From Hyphomicrobiales bacterium 4NK60-0047b (GTDB lineage: Bacteria > Pseudomonadota > Alphaproteobacteria > Rhizobiales > HXMU1428-3): a stretch of 64,000 nucleotides of DNA. Shown piece by piece: positions 14,297-22,908 of this stretch; within the stretch, counting starts at the first letter, position 1; every line of letters begins with the position of its first letter. The position numbers were made by a program, and so were the translations under genes. The stretch covers positions 496,001-560,000 of the forward strand of contig BAABWY010000001.1 of assembly GCA_040367435.1 (NCBI GenBank), read 5' to 3'. Under the pieces are notes generated by a model. That model saw only the letters and a list, made by a program, of their open reading frames with translations. It was not told the DNA's origin and ran no database searches.

Positions 14297-14668
14297 TTAC
14301 TTCGGACGCTTTGCACCATACTTCGAACGACGTTGCTTTCTGTCTGCAACACCTTGAGTATCAAGCACACCGCGTAAGATGTGATAACGAACACCTGGTA
14401 AATCTTTCACACGACCACCACGAATAAGAACAACTGAGTGCTCTTGCAGGTTGTGTCCAACACCAGGAATATAGCTTGTCACCTCAAAGCCATTTGACAA
14501 ACGCACACGAGCTACTTTTCGCATCGCTGAGTTAGGCTTTTTAGGAGTAGTTGTATAAACACGAGTACATACGCCGCGCTTTTGAGGACAAGCCTCCATC
14601 GCTGGCACTTTATTTCTTTTAACCTGCGGTTTCCGCGGTTTTCTAACAAGCTGTTGTATTGTAGGCAT
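14297..14668 (-). CDS. rpsL: 30S ribosomal protein S12
   Basis: A 123-residue S12 with the decoding-centre segments [21 protein letters not shown] and [18 protein letters not shown]. The two lysines whose substitution gives streptomycin resistance in other bacteria (about 43 and 88) are both wild type. It is the first gene of the str-S10-spc cluster. A structured leader runs up to about 20 nt before its start codon, so initiation may be under RNA control. Confidence 0.98.
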
Positions 14669-14688
14669 TTGCTACATCCAAAGTTTAG

Positions 14689-14735
14689 CGCCTTACCAAA
14701 CTCGCTCATCCAATAGAGCGGGCCCATATAAGGCG
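14689..14735 (-). promoter_or_regulatory. rpsL-proximal leader stem-loop
   Basis: Outer arms CGCCTTA (14689-14695) and TAAGGCG (14729-14735) enclose inner arms CGCTC (14703-14707) and GAGCG (14716-14720). In RNA this is a two-tier stem ending about 20 nt before the rpsL start codon, so it could hide or present the ribosome binding site. No poly-U follows, which argues against a simple terminator. Confidence 0.6.
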
Positions 14736-14739
14736 ATTT

Positions 14740-14868
14740 ATGATCCTTAAACACCAAAATCGAGTTGAGCCCCAATTGGCAATATTCACGCATATGCGAG
14801 AATACCAATAGGCTCAACATCAAAACATCAGAGGATCATTAACGGTCAAAATGACCTATAAGGATCAT
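14740..14868 (-). promoter_or_regulatory. Large leader hairpin and alternative long-range pairing upstream of rpsL
   Basis: GTTGAGCC (14764-14771) pairs with GGCTCAAC (14811-14818). Inside, ATTGG and TATTC pair with GAATA and CCAAT around the palindrome CGCATATGCG, making a stem-loop of 55 nt. Outside it, ATGATCCTT (14740-14748) can pair perfectly with AAGGATCAT (14860-14868), or with AGGATCAT (14832-14839), but not both at once. GGTCA/TGACC (14844-14856) lies between the two partners. The arrangement resembles a leader with two competing folds. Ligand or protein control is inference. Confidence 0.6.
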
Positions 14869-15005
14869 GGGTCTCTCATGTAGTTCTTGGTTTCAAACAT
14901 CAGTGTTTAAGCGTTTAAGTCTCCGACTATTAATTAAATAGCTGCGAATTTAAGAGCATCCGCTGGCGACATTTATTCACTTACGACCTGTTGTGAGTTG
15001 GCCGA

Positions 15006-15034
15006 AACATATATAGCCTTTGGCCTCACGTCAA
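15006..15034 (-). promoter_or_regulatory. Likely promoter of the str-S10-spc operon
   Basis: On the minus strand TTGACG (15029-15034) and TATGTT (15006-15011) are separated by 17 bp, a good sigma-70 layout. Start of transcription near 15000 would give a leader of about 330 nt before rpsL. It fits the absence of other genes between 14669 and 15156. Confidence 0.55.
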
Positions 15035-15156: not shown

Positions 15157-16449
15157 ATGGCACACATAACCATAATAACCAGTGGCACAAGAGGAGACGT
15201 AGAACCCTTCATAAACTTCGCCATTTCCCTGAAAAACTTAGGCTTTACAGTACGCTTAGCAGCCCCTATCGACTTTAAAGAGTGGATATTATCTCATAAC
15301 TTAGAATATGCCAAAATCGGCTTAGAACCTATTAAAACCTTACTAGAAGCCACTCAACAACAAGATATGCTCAATTTCAATCTTTTTAAAATGAGAAAAA
15401 TACTCACCTTTTTCAAAAAGCACATAAGAGACGTGTTAATCACAACTCTCCCTCATGTCGCCGATGCCACAGACCTGATTATTTCTCACGTCTCCTTACC
15501 AGCCAGCTCAGATTTAGCTGAGGCCAAAGACGTACCATTAATTTTTGTTTCAACCGTCCCATTGGCCCCAACAAAACTCCACCCAAACATTATGATGCCT
15601 CAAAAATTCGGGCTCTTATCTGGGCGATTCTATAACAAATTAACCCATCTTCCTGTGCGATTCTCTCGTGTCTTTTATTCAGCTATTTATAAAGAACTGA
15701 GAAAAAAATTAAATCTCCCTTCAAACTCCATGTTCACACACTCTTTCAAAAAGGCTGGAACCCCTGTTCCACTTCTACATATCTATAGTTCTAGCCTTCA
15801 TCCAAGACCAGATGATTGGCCAGAAAATGCTCAAATCATCGGATTTTCTTTTAATGACTATGAAAGTCAAGACTGGGAGCCACCCCTCGAACTGATCGAG
15901 TTTTTAGAAAAAGGCCCCCCTCCAATATATATCGGCTTCGGGAGCATGATCCCAAGAGACGAAAAAGAACTCACGAACATCATTTGTAAAGCCGTTGAAA
16001 AGGCCAATGTCCGAGCACTAATTTCAAAAGGATGGGCAAACCTTACACCTAATTCCAAGTCTGAAAACATTTTACCAATTGGCCCGATGCCACATCATAG
16101 CTTGTTTCCACACTGCAAAGCAGTTGTTCATCACGGCGGTGCCGGTACAACAGCTGCAGGCCTTAGAGCAGCTTGCCCAACATTAATCTGTCCATTTGGC
16201 TTTGATCAACCTTTCTGGGGGCGTGTGATATATGACCGGGGATTAGGACCAGAACCCATCAACTTGAAAGACCTCACTGTTGAAAATCTGGCAACAGGCC
16301 TAAATCTCCTTAACACATCAACAGAATATAAAAACAATGCTAACCGCATCGCTCTAAAACTCAATCAAGAAGATGCCTTTACAAACTTGATGCCCTACAT
16401 TGAAAGGGCACTTAATCAAACCCAAAAACAAAAAATCCAGGTTGAATAA
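15157..16449 (+). CDS. UGT-like (GT1 family) glycosyltransferase
   Basis: A 430-residue enzyme of the MGT/UGT type. The N-terminus MAHITIITSGTRGDVEPFINFAISLKNLGF is typical of sterol- or lipid-glucosyltransferase-like GT1 proteins. The C-terminal sugar-nucleotide site reads VVHHGGAGTTAAGLRAACPTL followed by PFGFDQPFWG. It should transfer a sugar from a nucleotide donor to a lipid or small-molecule acceptor in the cytoplasm; the acceptor cannot be predicted. No membrane segments are evident. It lies divergently from rpsL, with a palindrome GATTAATTAATC (15130-15141) just upstream of its start. Its 3' end shares a hairpin with the facing YceI gene. Confidence 0.85.
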   Translation: MAHITIITSGTRGDVEPFINFAISLKNLGFTVRLAAPIDFKEWILSHNLEYAKIGLEPIKTLLEATQQQDMLNFNLFKMRKILTFFKKHIRDVLITTLPHVADATDLIISHVSLPASSDLAEAKDVPLIFVSTVPLAPTKLHPNIMMPQKFGLLSGRFYNKLTHLPVRFSRVFYSAIYKELRKKLNLPSNSMFTHSFKKAGTPVPLLHIYSSSLHPRPDDWPENAQIIGFSFNDYESQDWEPPLELIEFLEKGPPPIYIGFGSMIPRDEKELTNIICKAVEKANVRALISKGWANLTPNSKSENILPIGPMPHHSLFPHCKAVVHHGGAGTTAAGLRAACPTLICPFGFDQPFWGRVIYDRGLGPEPINLKDLTVENLATGLNLLNTSTEYKNNANRIALKLNQEDAFTNLMPYIERALNQTQKQKIQVE

Positions 16450-16463
16450 ATCAACCTGGATTT
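16433..16463 (-). terminator. Terminator for the YceI gene (shared with the glycosyltransferase)
   Basis: A perfect 13-bp stem, AAATCCAGGTTGA / TCAACCTGGATTT, with loop ATAAA. On the minus strand it is followed by a T-rich run (TTTTTTGTTTTTG), as expected for a rho-independent terminator of the YceI gene. The left arm lies inside the last codons of the glycosyltransferase gene. Confidence 0.85.
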
Positions 16464-16490
16464 AAAAGACTTAAGAACTGTGAAACCAGT

Positions 16491-17087
16491 TTATTTACGC
16501 AACATCTCAGTTTCGATGATAATCTCAACTTCATCACTTGTTGCAGGAACATAGAGCCCCATTCCAAAGTCACTACGCTTAATCACAGTCTTGCCGGAAA
16601 ACGCAACAACATAAGTACCCTTCATCTTAGGGTTAAACTTAGCCAAAGGGTGTTCTTTATCTGCAACCAGTTTCAAATCAAGATTAACAGGCTTTGTTTT
16701 CCCCTTGATTGTTAAGTTGCCAGACACTCTAAAATTATTGCCTGTTACTTTCTTTACTTTCGTACTAACAAAAGTTGCCTTCGGATATTTAGCACTATTG
16801 AAAAAATCTTTATCTTGTAGATGTTTATTAAAAACATCTACTCCTGTATCCAAGCTCTTCACATCAATAACAACATTTATCGAACTCTTCTCAGGAACCT
16901 TACGGTCAATCTTTAAAGTACCATCAACTTTGTTAAACCCAGCATAAGCGCGAGATAGCCCTAAATGACGATATGAAAAAATAACTTCAGTATGTTTCGT
17001 ATCAAATTTATAAGTTTGACTTTCTGCCAAAACAGGTTGTGCAGAAAAGCCTAAAAGCAGGGTTGCAAGTGCGAGGAATTTTTTCAT
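16491..17087 (-). CDS. YceI-like periplasmic lipid-binding protein
   Basis: A 198-residue protein with an N-terminal signal peptide (about 1-21, ending PVLAES) followed by a complete YceI domain: YKFDTKHTEVIFSYRHLGLSRAYAGF, SINVVIDVKSLDTGVDVFNKHLQDKDFFNSAKYPKA and RSDFGMGLY near the end. YceI proteins are beta-barrel carriers of isoprenoid or fatty ligands in the periplasm. GGAG stands 6 nt before the ATG. It follows the cytochrome b561-YceI fusion by 84 bp in the same direction, so the two likely form an operon and may handle the same isoprenoid or quinone-like ligand. Confidence 0.9.
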   Translation of the reverse strand: MKKFLALATLLLGFSAQPVLAESQTYKFDTKHTEVIFSYRHLGLSRAYAGFNKVDGTLKIDRKVPEKSSINVVIDVKSLDTGVDVFNKHLQDKDFFNSAKYPKATFVSTKVKKVTGNNFRVSGNLTIKGKTKPVNLDLKLVADKEHPLAKFNPKMKGTYVVAFSGKTVIKRSDFGMGLYVPATSDEVEIIIETEMLRK

Positions 17088-17171
17088 TTTTTTCTCCGTA
17101 TAACATCAAAAATATAGAATTACATAAAGTGCTAAGAGCATTTAACTGATGCAATTAATTTGAGTAAAGCT

Positions 17172-18419
17172 CTAGCGTTTCTTTAAGGCACGAATATGGA
17201 CCTTGAGCTGAACTTCATCAGACAAATCATCAGTCGAAGCCCATTCCCCCTGACCAATTTTGTAAGCCAATCGGCTAATACTGGTCTCTCCATTGGCCTG
17301 AATAACCGCAGGAATAGACTTGTCACGATCCTCAAGCTGAATGGTTAGTTTCAAAACTGTCGGATGGGTTATATCCTTTATTTGCAAATCTCCACTGACT
17401 TCATAAACATCAGAACCAAGGGACTTAAACTGTTTCGATCGAAACAGTGCCTTAGGAAATTCACTCGCATCAAACCAAGCTGAACTTGCCAAGGTTTGCT
17501 CTACTAGTAAATTACTCAAAGAGATTGAAGTGACATCAATCTCAATTTCAACAACTGATTTATCTAACGCTTCAGGATTAAAAAACAACTGTTTTAATTT
17601 GTATTCTTTAAAAGCACCTGTGGTCTTGGCACCTTTTTGTTTCGCTGTAAATTCTAAAAGACTAACCTTCTGATCAACAACCCAACCGCCTTCAGAACCA
17701 GTCTCTTCAGAGACACCCCCCTTAGTAATCCCCTCAGTACCTTTGATCTCTGAGGAAATCTTCGTCTTTTCTGAAGCTGAAAAATCTGAATAAGTAACAT
17801 AAAATCCCAGCCCACCTAAGAGCGTGCAAGCAATCAAAGTTTTATGCAAAAGGTGTGGTTTCATCTTTTGTAAAACAGGATCTTTAAAAAACACATGATG
17901 AAGCACAACAGCTGCTACATGCCCTCCAACCAAAAGCGCAAGAAACAAAGCCAACAGCTCATGAACTTCGGCCAATTGTTTAGAAAGCGCTTCATCTTTC
18001 CCAAGTAAATCAGGGACTGGTAAAATTTCTAAAATTACAATTTGAAAACCCGCTGTGGAGCTTCGAAGCCAACCAACCAAAGGCAATAAAATGAGAACAG
18101 CATAGAGCAAAAAATGCCCGAGCTGAGCACCAAAATGAATAATTACTGGGACCTGAGGAGAAGAATGCTTCGGCACTTTTGTCATAAAACGCCAACAAAG
18201 TCGCAAAACAACCAAAGCTAAAATGAACAAACCAAGCCACTTATGCCACGCATAAAAGTTGAGCTTATCTTTAGAAAGCTCCAGCCCCTCCATCGTCCAA
18301 CCTAAAGCAAACGCTATAAAAATTAGAGCGGCAATAAACCAATGAAACTGCCGTGCCATCCAATTATAAGAAGAAGCACTACCAGATACTTCACACTTAG
18401 CATTTAAGTTAGACGTCAC
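17172..18419 (-). CDS. Cytochrome b561 fused to a YceI domain
   Basis: A 415-residue membrane protein. Residues 20-195 form a CybB-type cytochrome b561 with four hydrophobic helices and candidate haem-ligand histidines (His26, His59 in AWHKW, His153, His167 and His174-175). After a helix near 195-213 and a Ser/Gly/Glu-rich linker, residues 240-415 form a YceI domain (VDQKVSLLEFTAKQKG, DASEFPKALFRSKQFK, ISRLAYKIGQGEW). The probable role is electron exchange between the quinone pool and a periplasmic isoprenoid ligand. The YceI half probably faces the periplasm. It precedes a stand-alone YceI gene in the same operon. Confidence 0.88.
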   Translation of the reverse strand: MTSNLNAKCEVSGSASSYNWMARQFHWFIAALIFIAFALGWTMEGLELSKDKLNFYAWHKWLGLFILALVVLRLCWRFMTKVPKHSSPQVPVIIHFGAQLGHFLLYAVLILLPLVGWLRSSTAGFQIVILEILPVPDLLGKDEALSKQLAEVHELLALFLALLVGGHVAAVVLHHVFFKDPVLQKMKPHLLHKTLIACTLLGGLGFYVTYSDFSASEKTKISSEIKGTEGITKGGVSEETGSEGGWVVDQKVSLLEFTAKQKGAKTTGAFKEYKLKQLFFNPEALDKSVVEIEIDVTSISLSNLLVEQTLASSAWFDASEFPKALFRSKQFKSLGSDVYEVSGDLQIKDITHPTVLKLTIQLEDRDKSIPAVIQANGETSISRLAYKIGQGEWASTDDLSDEVQLKVHIRALKKR

Positions 18420-18575: not shown

Positions 18576-21500
18576 CTATTCTGCAGCTGTAGGATCACTA
18601 GCAGGTGCATCCGGAACAATCACATCTTCAGCTGGCTCATCATCAATGATCGGGCTGTCAACATCCATACCAGAATTACGCTCTTTCAAAATAAGTTCAT
18701 CACGCATAGTTGAAACTTTGCGTAGCTTGCTGAGCATAGCTCCCGTACCAGCCGGAATAAGTCGTCCAACAATAACGTTTTCTTTCAAGCCTTCCAGCGT
18801 ATCAGATTTACCAGCAACCGCAGCTTCAGTTAGAACGCGCGTTGTTTCCTGGAATGACGCCGCTGAGATAAAGCTCTTCGTCTGCAAACTAGCTTTGGTA
18901 ATACCAAGCAATACAGGACTACCTTTAGCTGGTTGACGACCATCAGCTTCAGCAGCCGCATTATTATCATGGAAATCAAAGCGATCAATGTGCTCACCCT
19001 TAAGCATTGATGTTTCACCAGGGTGTTCAACTTCAATTTTCTGCAACATCTGACGAACAATAACTTCAATATGCTTATCGTTAATCGGCACACCTTGCAG
19101 ACGATACACATCTTGAATTTCATTCACGAGGTAAGTCGCTAGTTCTTCAACACCCTTAATTGCCAGGATATCATGCGGAGCTGGGTGACCATCGAGGAGA
19201 TATTCACCTTTTTCAATCCGGTCGCCTTCTTGAACAGAAAGATGCTTACCTTTTTGAATAAGATATTCAACTTGATCTTCATCTTCATTGTCAGGAACAA
19301 TAGCAATCCGGCGCTTATTTTTATAATCACGACCAAATTCAACAGTACCTGTAATCTCAGCAATAATCGCATGATCTTTAGGACGGCGTGCTTCAAACAA
19401 TTCAGCAACACGCGGTAGACCACCCGTGATATCTTTCGTTTTCGCACTTTCCAAAGGAATACGAGCAAGAACGTCACCAGCTTTCACCTTCGCACCCGGA
19501 TCAACAGAAAGCACAGCCTCAACAGAAAGGATCGATCGAGCCTCACCGCCACGCTTGGTTTCTTTAATTTCACCTTTTGCATCAGTAACAATAATCGCAG
19601 GCTTCAAGTTCTCACCGCGCGGGCTAGAACGCCAATCGATAATCACACGGTTCGCAATACCAGTTGCTTCATCAAATTGTTCGTCAACAGAAATGCCATC
19701 TGTCAAATCTTCAAATGTCGCGGTACCATCAACCTCACAAAGGATAGGACGGGTATAAGGATCCCATTCAGCAATACGCATACCGCGTTTCACCTTATCT
19801 CCTTCATCAACTTTCAAATGCGCACCTTGCAAGATTTTATGTGTCGCAAGTTCTTTTCCATCCGGATCAAGAATAACAAGAACCAAATTCCGAGCCATAG
19901 CAACAAGGCGGCCCTGACTATCTTTCGCAATATTTTTGTTCTTAAAGCTTACAGTGCCGTCATAGCTTGCTTCAACAAAGGAGCTGTCAACAACCTGCGC
20001 TGTACCACCAATGTGGAACGTCCGCATCGTAAGCTGAGTACCAGGCTCACCAATTGATTGCGCCGCAATAACACCAACTGCTTCACCAAGGTTCACAGGT
20101 GTACCGCGAGCCAAATCACGTCCATAACATGTAGCACAACAACCATTTCGGGTTTCACATGTCAAAACAGATCTAATCTGAATTTCCTGAACAGATGAAT
20201 TATCTAACGCGACTGCATCAGCCTCATCAATTAGCTTACCAGCTTCAAGAATGACTTTACCGCTTTCAGGATCAACAACTTGATCTGCTACAGTCCGGCC
20301 TAACGCACGCGTGCCTAACGATACAATAATCTCACCAGAATCCACCGCAGCAGAAACCGCAATTGATTTATCAGTTCCACAATCTAGCTCATTAATGATG
20401 CTATCTTGCGCCACATCAACGAGACGACGTGTTAGATAACCAGAGTTCGCCGTTTTAAGAGCCGTATCAGCAAGACCTTTCCGCGCACCGTGAGTGGAGT
20501 TAAAATACTCAAGAACGGTCAAACCTTCTTTAAAGTTTGATGTAATCGGTGTTTCAATAATGTCACCAGAAGGTTTCGCCATCAATCCGCGCATACCAGC
20601 AAGCTGTTTCATCTGTTGGGGTGAACCACGCGCGCCAGAATGCGCCATCATGTAAACAGAGTTGGTTGGAATAGTCCGACCAGTTTCATCATCAATATGC
20701 ACCGCAGAAATACGGTCCATCATTTCAGCCGCAACTTTGTCAGTACACTTCGCCCAAGCATCAACAACCTTGTTGTATTTCTCGCCGCGCGTAATCAAAC
20801 CATCATTATATTGTTGCTCATACTCACGAGCTAGGTCAGATGTATCATCAACGATCTTCGCTTTGGTATCAGGAATAACCATGTCATCCTTACCAAACGA
20901 AATACCAGCAAGACACGCATGCTTAAATCCGGTTTGCATAATACGGTCACAGAAAATAACGGATTCTTTCTGGCCACAATTCCGGTAAACCGCGTCAATC
21001 ATGCCAGAAATTTCTTTCTTGGTGAGCATGCGGTTAATAATCTCAAAAGAAACACCAGGTTTCTTCGGCAACAATTCACCAAGGATCATACGGCCAGGCG
21101 TTGTGTCATAAACAGTGCTAACTTCTTCGCCAGCATCATCAATTGACTTATAACGACCTTTAATTTTCGTATGCAGTGTCACAACACCATTATCAAGCGC
21201 ATGACGAATTTCAGCAACAGAGCCGAACATCATACCTTCACCAGGCTCTTTATCATAAATAAGCGAGAGATAATAAAGACCAAGCACAATATCCTGAGAC
21301 GGCACGATAATCGGCGCACCGTTCGCAGGGTGAAGAACGTTGTTTGTTGACATCATCAACACACGCGCTTCAAGCTGCGCTTCAAGTGAAAGCGGCACGT
21401 GCACCGCCATTTGGTCACCGTCAAAGTCAGCGTTAAACGCCGCACAAACAAGTGGGTGCAGCTGAATAGCTTTACCTTCAACAAGCACCGGTTCAAACGC

Positions 21501-22811
21501 TTGAATACCAAGACGGTGCAACGTAGGCGCACGGTTTAGCATCACTGGATGTTCGCGAATAACTTCATCCAGAATATCCCAAACTTCCGGCTTTTGCTTT
21601 TCAACAAGCTTCTTGGCTTGTTTCACAGTTGAAGCATAACCCTTCGCATCAAGACGAGAATAAATAAACGGCTTGAACAGCTCCAACGCCATCTTCTTAG
21701 GAAGACCACACTGGTGCAGTTTCATTTCCGGACCAACTACGATCACAGAACGTCCTGAATAGTCAACACGTTTACCAAGCAAGTTCTGACGGAAGCGTCC
21801 TTGCTTACCTTTAAGCATATCAGAAAGTGATTTTAGAGGACGCTTATTGGCGCCAGTAATCACACGGCCACGACGACCATTGTCGAATAGCGCATCAACA
21901 GATTCTTGTAGCATCCGCTTTTCGTTGCGAATGATAATATCAGGCGCACGTAATTCAATCAGACGCTTAAGACGGTTATTCCGGTTGATCACACGGCGAT
22001 AAAGATCGTTCAAATCAGATGTCGCAAACCGGCCACCATCTAGTGGCACAAGCGGGCGAAGTTCTGGCGGGATCACAGGCACAACAGTGAGGATCATCCA
22101 CTCAGGACGGTTACCAGATGTGATAAACGCTTCAACAACTTTCAAACGTTTAGCAAGTTTTTTAGGCTTCAGCTCGGTAGTCGCTTCAGCAATTTCCTGA
22201 CGCAATTGATCGCGAATAGTTGGTAGGTCAAGACCCATCAAAATTTCACGAATAGCTTCCGCACCAATACCAGCTGTAAAGGCATCATCACCATATTCTT
22301 CTTGAGCATCCATATACTCTTCTTCAGAAAGCAATTGGCCTTCCTGGAACGGAGTAATACCGGCCTCAATAACGATATAGCTTTCAAAATAAAGAACCCG
22401 CTCAAGATCCTTCAATGTCATATCAAGAAGCTGACCAATACGCGATGGCAATGATTTCAAGAACCAAATATGAGCAACGGGTGCAGCCAGTTCAATGTGG
22501 CCCATGCGCTCACGGCGCACTTTCGTCAAGGTAACCTCAACGCCGCACTTCTCACAGATAACGCCCTTATACTTCATCCGCTTATATTTGCCGCAAAGAC
22601 ATTCATAGTCTTTTACAGGACCAAAAATCCGCGCGCAAAATAAACCATCACGCTCAGGTTTGAACGTTCTATAATTAATAGTCTCTGGTTTTTTAATCTC
22701 ACCAAAAGACCAAGAATGAATTTCTTCAGGGCTCGCAATCGAAATCCGAATTTGATCGAATGTAGATTGAGGCGTCTGAGGATTAAAGAGATTGACGGCG
22801 TCGTGGTTCAT
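18576..22811 (-). CDS. rpoC: DNA-directed RNA polymerase subunit beta'
   Basis: About 1411 residues. The catalytic NADFDGD magnesium-binding motif is intact ([17 protein letters not shown]), as are the N-terminal zinc-binding cysteines ([23 protein letters not shown]), the second zinc cluster ([15 protein letters not shown]), and the bridge-helix and trigger-loop region ([26 protein letters not shown]). I chose the ATG at 22811 ([11 protein letters not shown]), which matches family starts and has GGAG 7 nt upstream. A longer frame begins with ATT and is unlikely. The C-terminus has an acidic Ala/Asp-rich tail. Confidence 0.98.
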
Positions 22812-22908
22812 CCCGGTTCTCCATTTAGAAAGAGCTTCCTCTTTCAGTCTTGCGTCATTGAGTTGTTTCAATAACGCATTAATTAAATATCTAATTCAAA
22901 AGCAGTTT

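Follow-up and report, generated by a model that had tools for sequence, protein, structure and literature searches.

The mRNA of the rpsL-led operon of Hyphomicrobiales bacterium 4NK60-0047b starts with a folded element that, judging from the comparison of related leaders, is very probably a real and uncatalogued switch for ribosome production. By the window we mean the whole 64,000-nucleotide stretch of DNA that was analysed. On the comparative evidence it is practically certain that the leader contains a genuine conserved structure, and the alignments indicate that its best-conserved part is a two-stem element, here called Domain I, which an earlier note on this DNA had overlooked. That note had proposed that the rpsL-led superoperon begins with a control element, and its proposal is supported here by covariation, by a nearly exclusive location and by a fixed distance from a conserved promoter.

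A structured leader with a conserved promoter

The sequence features named in the earlier note were all found exactly where it had placed them, on the minus strand (Table 1). Leader RNA spanning 15000-14669 (332 nt) has a folding energy of -104.6 kcal/mol, compared with -79.8 +/- 6 kcal/mol for shuffled sequences (z -4.1), and none of 100 dinucleotide shuffles folds as well. Conserved structure and covariation are clearly present upstream of rpsL in relatives.

Table 1. Features of the rpsL leader and its surroundings in the window (positions are those of the window).
Feature	Position	Strand	Remarks
rpsL (ribosomal protein S12)	14297..14668	-	First gene of the downstream operon; then rpsG, fusA, tuf, rpsJ
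Probable promoter	15006..15034	-	-35 TTGACG 15034-15029, 17-nt spacer, -10 TATGTT 15011-15006
Domain I	14897..14995	-	Covariance model R1 match 14829-14999, 53 bits, E 9e-16; covariation order-wide and class-wide
Domain I stem P1	14994-14988 with 14903-14897	-	Contains a single A.A mismatch in this organism
Domain I internal loop	14987-14984 / 14907-14904	-	5' GUCG / 3' AACA
Domain I stem P2	14983-14978 with 14913-14908	-	
Domain I variable apical insert	14977-14914	-	
Domain II	14829..14868	-	Hairpin closed by GAUC 14866-14863 / GAUC 14837-14834, then CCUCUG 14834-14829
Hairpin III	14764..14818	-	The 55-nt hairpin of the earlier note; outer helix formed in 7/7 genus members
U-rich tail UCGAUUUUGGUGU	14751..14763	-	UUUU starts 4 nt past the hairpin III stem
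AAGGATCAT, claimed long-range partner of Domain II	14740..14748	-	Drawable in the genus, unsupported across the order
rpsL-proximal hairpin	14689..14735	-	Three closest genomes, by eye

Taken alone, the promoter-like site is at chance level, since a scan of the region gave 4 such sites with 3.3 expected. Among relatives TTGAC(G/C/T) with a 17-nt spacer is kept, and the form TTGACG-17-TAtgTT recurs in nearly all of them at a constant distance to Domain I. This conservation at a fixed spacing from the RNA element makes the promoter very probably real, as the earlier note had supposed. Transcription would be expected to start near 15000-14997, and the leader is in all likelihood transcribed.

The gene rpoC (18576-22871, minus strand) is separated from rpsL by three genes within 15157-18419 of the window: a divergent glycosyltransferase-like gene (15157-16449, plus strand), a YceI-like gene (16491-17087) and a cytochrome b561/YceI-like fusion (17172-18419). 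By contrast, rpoC and rpsL seem to be direct neighbours in several relatives with small genomes.

Domain I has two covarying stems and an invariant internal loop

Domain I consists of a freely covarying stem, an internal loop of the form 5' G-Y-N-G / 3' R-A-C-R and a second covarying stem. In an alignment of 31 leaders of the window's order (A1), with a structure of 24 pairs covering P1, P2 and the Domain II stem, 84.7% of cells are paired, compared with 33-42% when the partners are slid, and 18 pairs show changes on both sides. A class-wide alignment of 38 columns and 44 leaders gave 90.2% paired cells against 31-45% for slid partners, with rows that had been pre-selected for pairing. The fair test is therefore the shuffle control of a motif grammar, which demands P1 and P2 of at least 4 bp each around 5' G..G and 3'.AC.; this grammar was satisfied by 69 of 139 unselected leaders, compared with 0.25 expected from dinucleotide shuffles. 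Across these 69 leaders, which come from many families and supplied the 44 rows of the class-wide alignment, the loop reads 5' G13-Y14-N15-G16 and 3' R/U121-A122-C123-R124, with G13, G16, A122 and C123 invariant and positions 14 and 124 always forming C-G, U-A or U-G.

The promoter was recognised in 117 of 126 leaders, and in these G13 follows the -10 box by 13-25 nt with two exceptions, mostly by 18-20 nt (median 19; quartiles 18 and 20.5), while the distance from G13 to the start codon is variable, at about 170 to 280 nt. Given this constant spacing from the -10 box, Domain I begins a few nucleotides from the expected transcript start.

Within the window's genus, the segment 14914-14862 (minus strand), CGCTTAAACACTGATGTTTGAAACCAAGAACTACATGAGAGACC(C)ATGATCC, is nearly unchanged in every member, the linker between Domains I and II included; elsewhere in the order, unlike within the genus, this linker varies freely. 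Two coding readings were tried and rejected. A short upstream open reading frame in the conserved genus segment (ATG TTT GAA ACC ..., MFETKNYMRDP) has its frame shifted by insertions and deletions among members, as seen by eye, and the reading of CATGATC as a start codon is ruled out by the variants CACGAYC and CAAGATC.

The element is nearly confined to rpsL leaders of Alphaproteobacteria

By BLAST, the leader DNA is recognisable in 7 genus members (70-89% identity for the six besides the window's own) and is not recognisable in other genera. In one genus member (G007) the leader is divided between two contig ends, which accounts for its two BLAST matches. Beyond the genus, inspection by eye and by motif of other families in the order identified a common series of TTGACG-17-TATGTT, CAGGYNGTRR ... 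YTARACRCTG, CAYGAYC ... GRTCCTCTG and a strong hairpin. A covariance model built from A1, R1, matches genus members and also families outside its training set (for example L030, at 64 bits; for the window, see Table 1). When relatives were searched with this model, exactly one R1 match was found in 48 of 61 whole genomes, and the single matches in these 48 genomes are in register with the upstream coordinates of rpsL.

A degenerate DNA pattern was also run over GTDB (257 Gb), where it matched at least 120 stretches. Among the 120 matches listed, 103 fall in the 400 nt before rpsL, 4 are at the cut end of a stored alphaproteobacterial stretch, and the other 13, from unrelated taxa (other phyla, Serratia, Lautropia), have no rpsL nearby. 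Roseibium and Methylopila are among the genera with a match at rpsL. With the pattern and the model matches both sitting before rpsL, the element is practically exclusive to this place.

We took rpsL leaders from 80 further alphaproteobacterial families, of which R1 detects 24 at E 0.01 or better. Many more than these display by eye a similar skeleton with a different P1, such as GGGAGTTG/CAACTCCC, GGGAACCG/CGGTTTCC and CGGAAATG/CATTTTCC. A class-wide model, R2, recovers 36 of the 80 at the same threshold, 29 of those being in its training set, and R1 and R2 together find Domain I in 40 of the 80 families. Applied to 20 rpsL leaders from outside Alphaproteobacteria, R2 gave no match. Such a class-restricted distribution is typical of ribosomal leaders. 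A whole-genome count with covariance models over 387 genomes gave at least 23 matches with the best 8 candidates per genome scored; since that number of candidates makes it an underestimate, the count was discarded and the rpsL leaders were compared instead. One genome bin (G054) holds two different rpsL genes with different leaders (L018, L045), probably through assembly contamination.

In some genomes the element precedes rpsJ

Searching 299 genomes of the phylum with R2 gave 8 matches, 2 of which are not at rpsL. One of these, in G359, is on a different contig from that of rpsL, some 250 nt before the start codon of rpsJ, which rplC follows. The other, in the alphaproteobacterium G608 (L277 1501-1540, 29.7 bits), has no evident ribosomal gene near and is probably a chance match. 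We then examined the rpsJ loci of 30 genomes whose rpsL leader lacks, or was expected to lack, Domain I. R2 detected the element at the rpsJ loci of G101 and G359, and those of G112 and G292 have a Domain I with a different P2. In the family of G112 (f104), the grammar was matched by 22 of 28 rpsJ leaders and by none of their shuffles, and the P2 stems are compensated (TGCACTTCG/TGAAGTGCA, TAAGCC/GGCTTA, TAGCTCC/GGGGCTA). A TTGACG promoter precedes Domain I in these leaders, and a strong U-tailed hairpin follows it. In one family and one further genome the element precedes rpsJ and not rpsL; in the window it is at rpsL, and rpsJ comes later in the same series of genes.

In these comparisons the promoter, Domain I and the hairpin together behave as one module at the head of whichever transcript carries the S10 genes, be its first gene rpsL or rpsJ. 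The finding of the element at rpsJ turns suspicion away from S12 and S7, and we infer that the ligand may be encoded in the S10 region or farther downstream, with L4 as the leading candidate. One rpsJ leader (L317, G212) carries GGGAUGGCAG-CGCU..AGCG-AACGCUCCC after a TTGACG promoter, a divergent look-alike of Domain I that was not scored by the model.

Many ribosomal leaders mimic rRNA. Run without filters on the organism's own 16S and 23S loci, R1 scored 5.9 bits at most, and a two-strand motif scan of the same rRNAs found at most 2 weak sites per molecule, on the wrong strand too, which is the level of chance. Mimicry of rRNA, with a supposed resemblance between the internal loop and AGUAGCGGCGAGCGAAC of 23S among the cases considered, was therefore rejected, both kinds of scan having stayed at chance level.

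Domain II, hairpin III and downstream pairing

Domain II has the consensus CAYGAYC..GRUCCUCUG, which is common in the window's order, and within it CCUCUG is nearly invariant. Its helix is paired in 85% of the cells of A1, 7 of 8 pairs having changed on both sides, and in permutations over 96 dereplicated leaders of the order the hairpin prefers its own partner (z -9.4).

Hairpin III is kept in all seven genus members in which the leader was found (56 of 56 pairs of the outer helix), and this helix includes one fully covarying pair, an A-U to G-C swap. In the order, hairpins of -12 kcal/mol or stronger followed by a T-tract were found in 39 of 52 leaders, compared with 8-14 in shuffles, and in other alphaproteobacterial families in 55 of 80, compared with 14-24. 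In the window's genus none of six leaders has a terminator-like hairpin at -12 kcal/mol, and in the window hairpin III with its tail would be at best a weak terminator or pause site. As the spacing between hairpin and TTTT ranges between 0 and 8 nt across the order and the rpsJ family, a uniform intrinsic terminator is not shown; a role of hairpin III as a pause or an assisted terminator is possible on these comparisons. A conserved U-rich box TTTTGCG after hairpin III was considered and dropped, being marked in the rpsJ family only and weak in the order. The hairpin next to rpsL, also claimed in the earlier note, is present in the window, and by eye it was seen in the three closest genomes only.

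The earlier note had further proposed a switch between two pairing states, with Domain II pairing either locally or with AAGGATCAT after hairpin III. The complementarity is exact: ATGATCCTT (14868-14860), of which ATGATCCT (14839-14832) is a second copy, pairs with AAGGATCAT, although the orientation was loosely worded, AAGGATCAT being the minus strand read from 14748 to 14740. Most members of the window's genus allow a pairing of 5-9 bp to be drawn, and beyond the genus the switch finds no support. Its 3' partner is merely sequence shared by the closest genomes. When Domains I and II were set against downstream partners in permutations of the 96 dereplicated leaders, no clear preference for their own partner emerged (z +2.2 to -2.4), and with twelve permutation tests made, the z of about -2 reached in several of them is marginal at most and unconvincing, in contrast to the -9.4 of the local Domain II hairpin. 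Nor did these tests give a clear signal in the order for a conserved antiterminator or ribosome-binding-site (RBS) pairing beyond the hairpins themselves. We thus consider a two-state switch very improbable.

Leaders of a reduced-genome family pair their 5' end with the RBS region

In family f134, whose genomes are of about 1.0-1.6 Mb, a register search made without shuffle control found the P2 helix and the UAAAC segment in 29 of 29 leaders. P1 is compensated in most of them (GGTAG/CTACC, GTTAG/CTAAC, AGTTAA/TTAACT), and R2 scores are weak. In this family the leader's 5' end shows a preference (z -4.6) for its own partner, a segment directly preceding the start codon of rpsL, with which it pairs; the corresponding values are -0.1 in the window's order and 0.5 in other families, where no such pairing is found. 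Leaders L328-L357 have the 5'-end sequence UUUUUAAGG in one group and UUUUGAUG or GAUGUUUUUG in others, with a complement close to the start codon and compensatory changes. The pairing suggests that in f134 the output is probably translation of rpsL. From the reduced genomes, the apparent gene order and the low G+C, f134 appears to be the Pelagibacter group.

How the leader might act

We give about an even chance to the leader being a ribosomal-protein autoregulatory element that acts by attenuation. Sequence comparison puts Domain I 5'-terminally, beside the conserved promoter; many species have a strong U-tailed hairpin after it, and the first gene, rpsL or rpsJ, comes next. Domain I would provide the putative binding site for a ribosomal protein that the operon encodes. 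A protein encoded from S10 onward is the more likely ligand, since the element does occur at rpsJ, at an S10 operon with a promoter of its own; L4 would lead the candidates by analogy with the E. coli S10 leader. When in excess over rRNA, the protein would bind Domain I and RNA polymerase would then stop or pause at hairpin III, which in turn would lower expression of the whole operon. Against attenuation stand the lack of an rRNA counterpart of Domain I in the organism's own 16S and 23S, the poor quality of hairpin III as a terminator in the window's genus, the inconstant gap to the U-tract and the failure to find a conserved antiterminator pairing across the order. A rival reading takes Domain I as an antitermination element in the style of put RNA, EAR or nut, which, being transcribed first, would bind or modify RNA polymerase to promote read-through of the leader hairpin and processivity along the long operon. 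The put and EAR antiterminator RNAs lie at or near the 5' end of long transcripts, and Domain I shares this placement. In favour of the reading, Domain I is fixed at the extreme 5' end beside the promoter, it heads a long operon whether rpsL or rpsJ comes first, a terminator-like hairpin lies downstream and no counterpart was found in the organism's own rRNA. Against it, Domain I is kept in leaders of reduced genomes (f134, L191) that have no evident terminator, and the f134 leaders pair their 5' end with the RBS region; we rate antitermination as fairly unlikely. A more specific form, in which Domain I would be an RNA dedicated to antitermination and the first such element of general use in ribosomal-protein operons, moving with its promoter between rpsL and rpsJ, we rate as unlikely.

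The 5'-terminal stem, its constant distance from the promoter and its occurrence in high-expression operons only would also suit a 5' stabiliser, which would shield the long and abundant message against RNase E and against processing at its 5' end. Such a function needs a stem but not the invariant loop with its always-paired positions 14 and 124, which makes it distinctly unlikely. Autogenous control by translation only, in which a leader-bound ribosomal protein would block the rpsL RBS without transcription attenuation, draws on the own-partner preference of the f134 pairing; the absence of that pairing from the window's order and other families, and the usual separation of Domain I from the start codon by 170-280 nt, render it quite improbable. 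A conserved internal loop might also belong to a small-molecule riboswitch sitting by chance on ribosomal operons, but an element essentially confined to the regions upstream of rpsL or rpsJ makes this extremely improbable; all leaders with such a distribution that are known to us respond to proteins.

In E. coli the known leaders (S7, L4) are located elsewhere than this element. A small, readily assayed element where the fused str-S10-spc-alpha operon of Alphaproteobacteria begins, common to many families and movable between rpsL and rpsJ, makes it directly testable how these bacteria keep the synthesis of ribosomal proteins in balance.

Comparison with known systems

A ribosomal-protein leader is a known kind of element, and what was found here is a conserved, covarying RNA structure within predicted 5' UTRs of genes for ribosomal proteins; the Domain I family is not in Rfam 15. 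Searched with Rfam 15, the whole window gave tRNAs only and the leader gave no match even at E 5, while 20 related leaders had none at E 1, rpsL_ricks included. In the open-access literature we found a Pelagibacter-restricted motif and species-level attenuator predictions only, and no class-wide description. The statement in the earlier note that no S12 leader of this form is well established in Alphaproteobacteria is thus nearly right.

Attenuators in rpsL leaders, a Rickettsia family (rpsL_ricks) included, were predicted in 2010 (Naville and Gautheret, PMC2965389). These share with the present element the rpsL leader, terminator-like hairpins and a proposed attenuation, but unlike the Domain I leader they were reported to have "no globally conserved feature" of sequence or structure (PMC2965389). 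The E. coli S10 operon leader, which is controlled by L4 and NusA (PMC10931766), has a similar design, with a 5' leader of the S10 operon, attenuation at a U-tailed hairpin and control by an operon product, as proposed here. No relation of sequence or structure to it is shown, and in most alphaproteobacteria sampled the element heads rpsL. Control of the E. coli str operon by S7 concerns the same downstream genes, yet the S7 site lies between rpsL and rpsG (PMC10931766), whereas the element described here is at the 5' end of the leader and may be that of rpsJ.

The closest likeness is to the rpsL motif described in 2009 from Pelagibacter and marine metagenomes only, which was proposed as a ribosomal regulatory RNA with an unknown ligand and drawn as a three-stem junction (Meyer et al. 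2009, PMC2704228). Like the window's element, it lies before rpsL at the head of a fused ribosomal superoperon (PMC2704228), and, judged by the description in that paper, its covarying P2, variable loop and invariant J2-3 may correspond to P2 and the RAC segment of Domain I. The outer bulged P1 of the motif is fitted by the 5'-end/RBS helix of f134, which is absent in the window's order (z -0.1). The two-stem Domain I has been traced to many families and to rpsJ, in contrast to the Pelagibacter-only motif (PMC2704228), and the covariance model from this analysis is ready for deposition in Rfam. On this comparison, the Pelagibacter motif of 2009 may belong to a family that spans the class.
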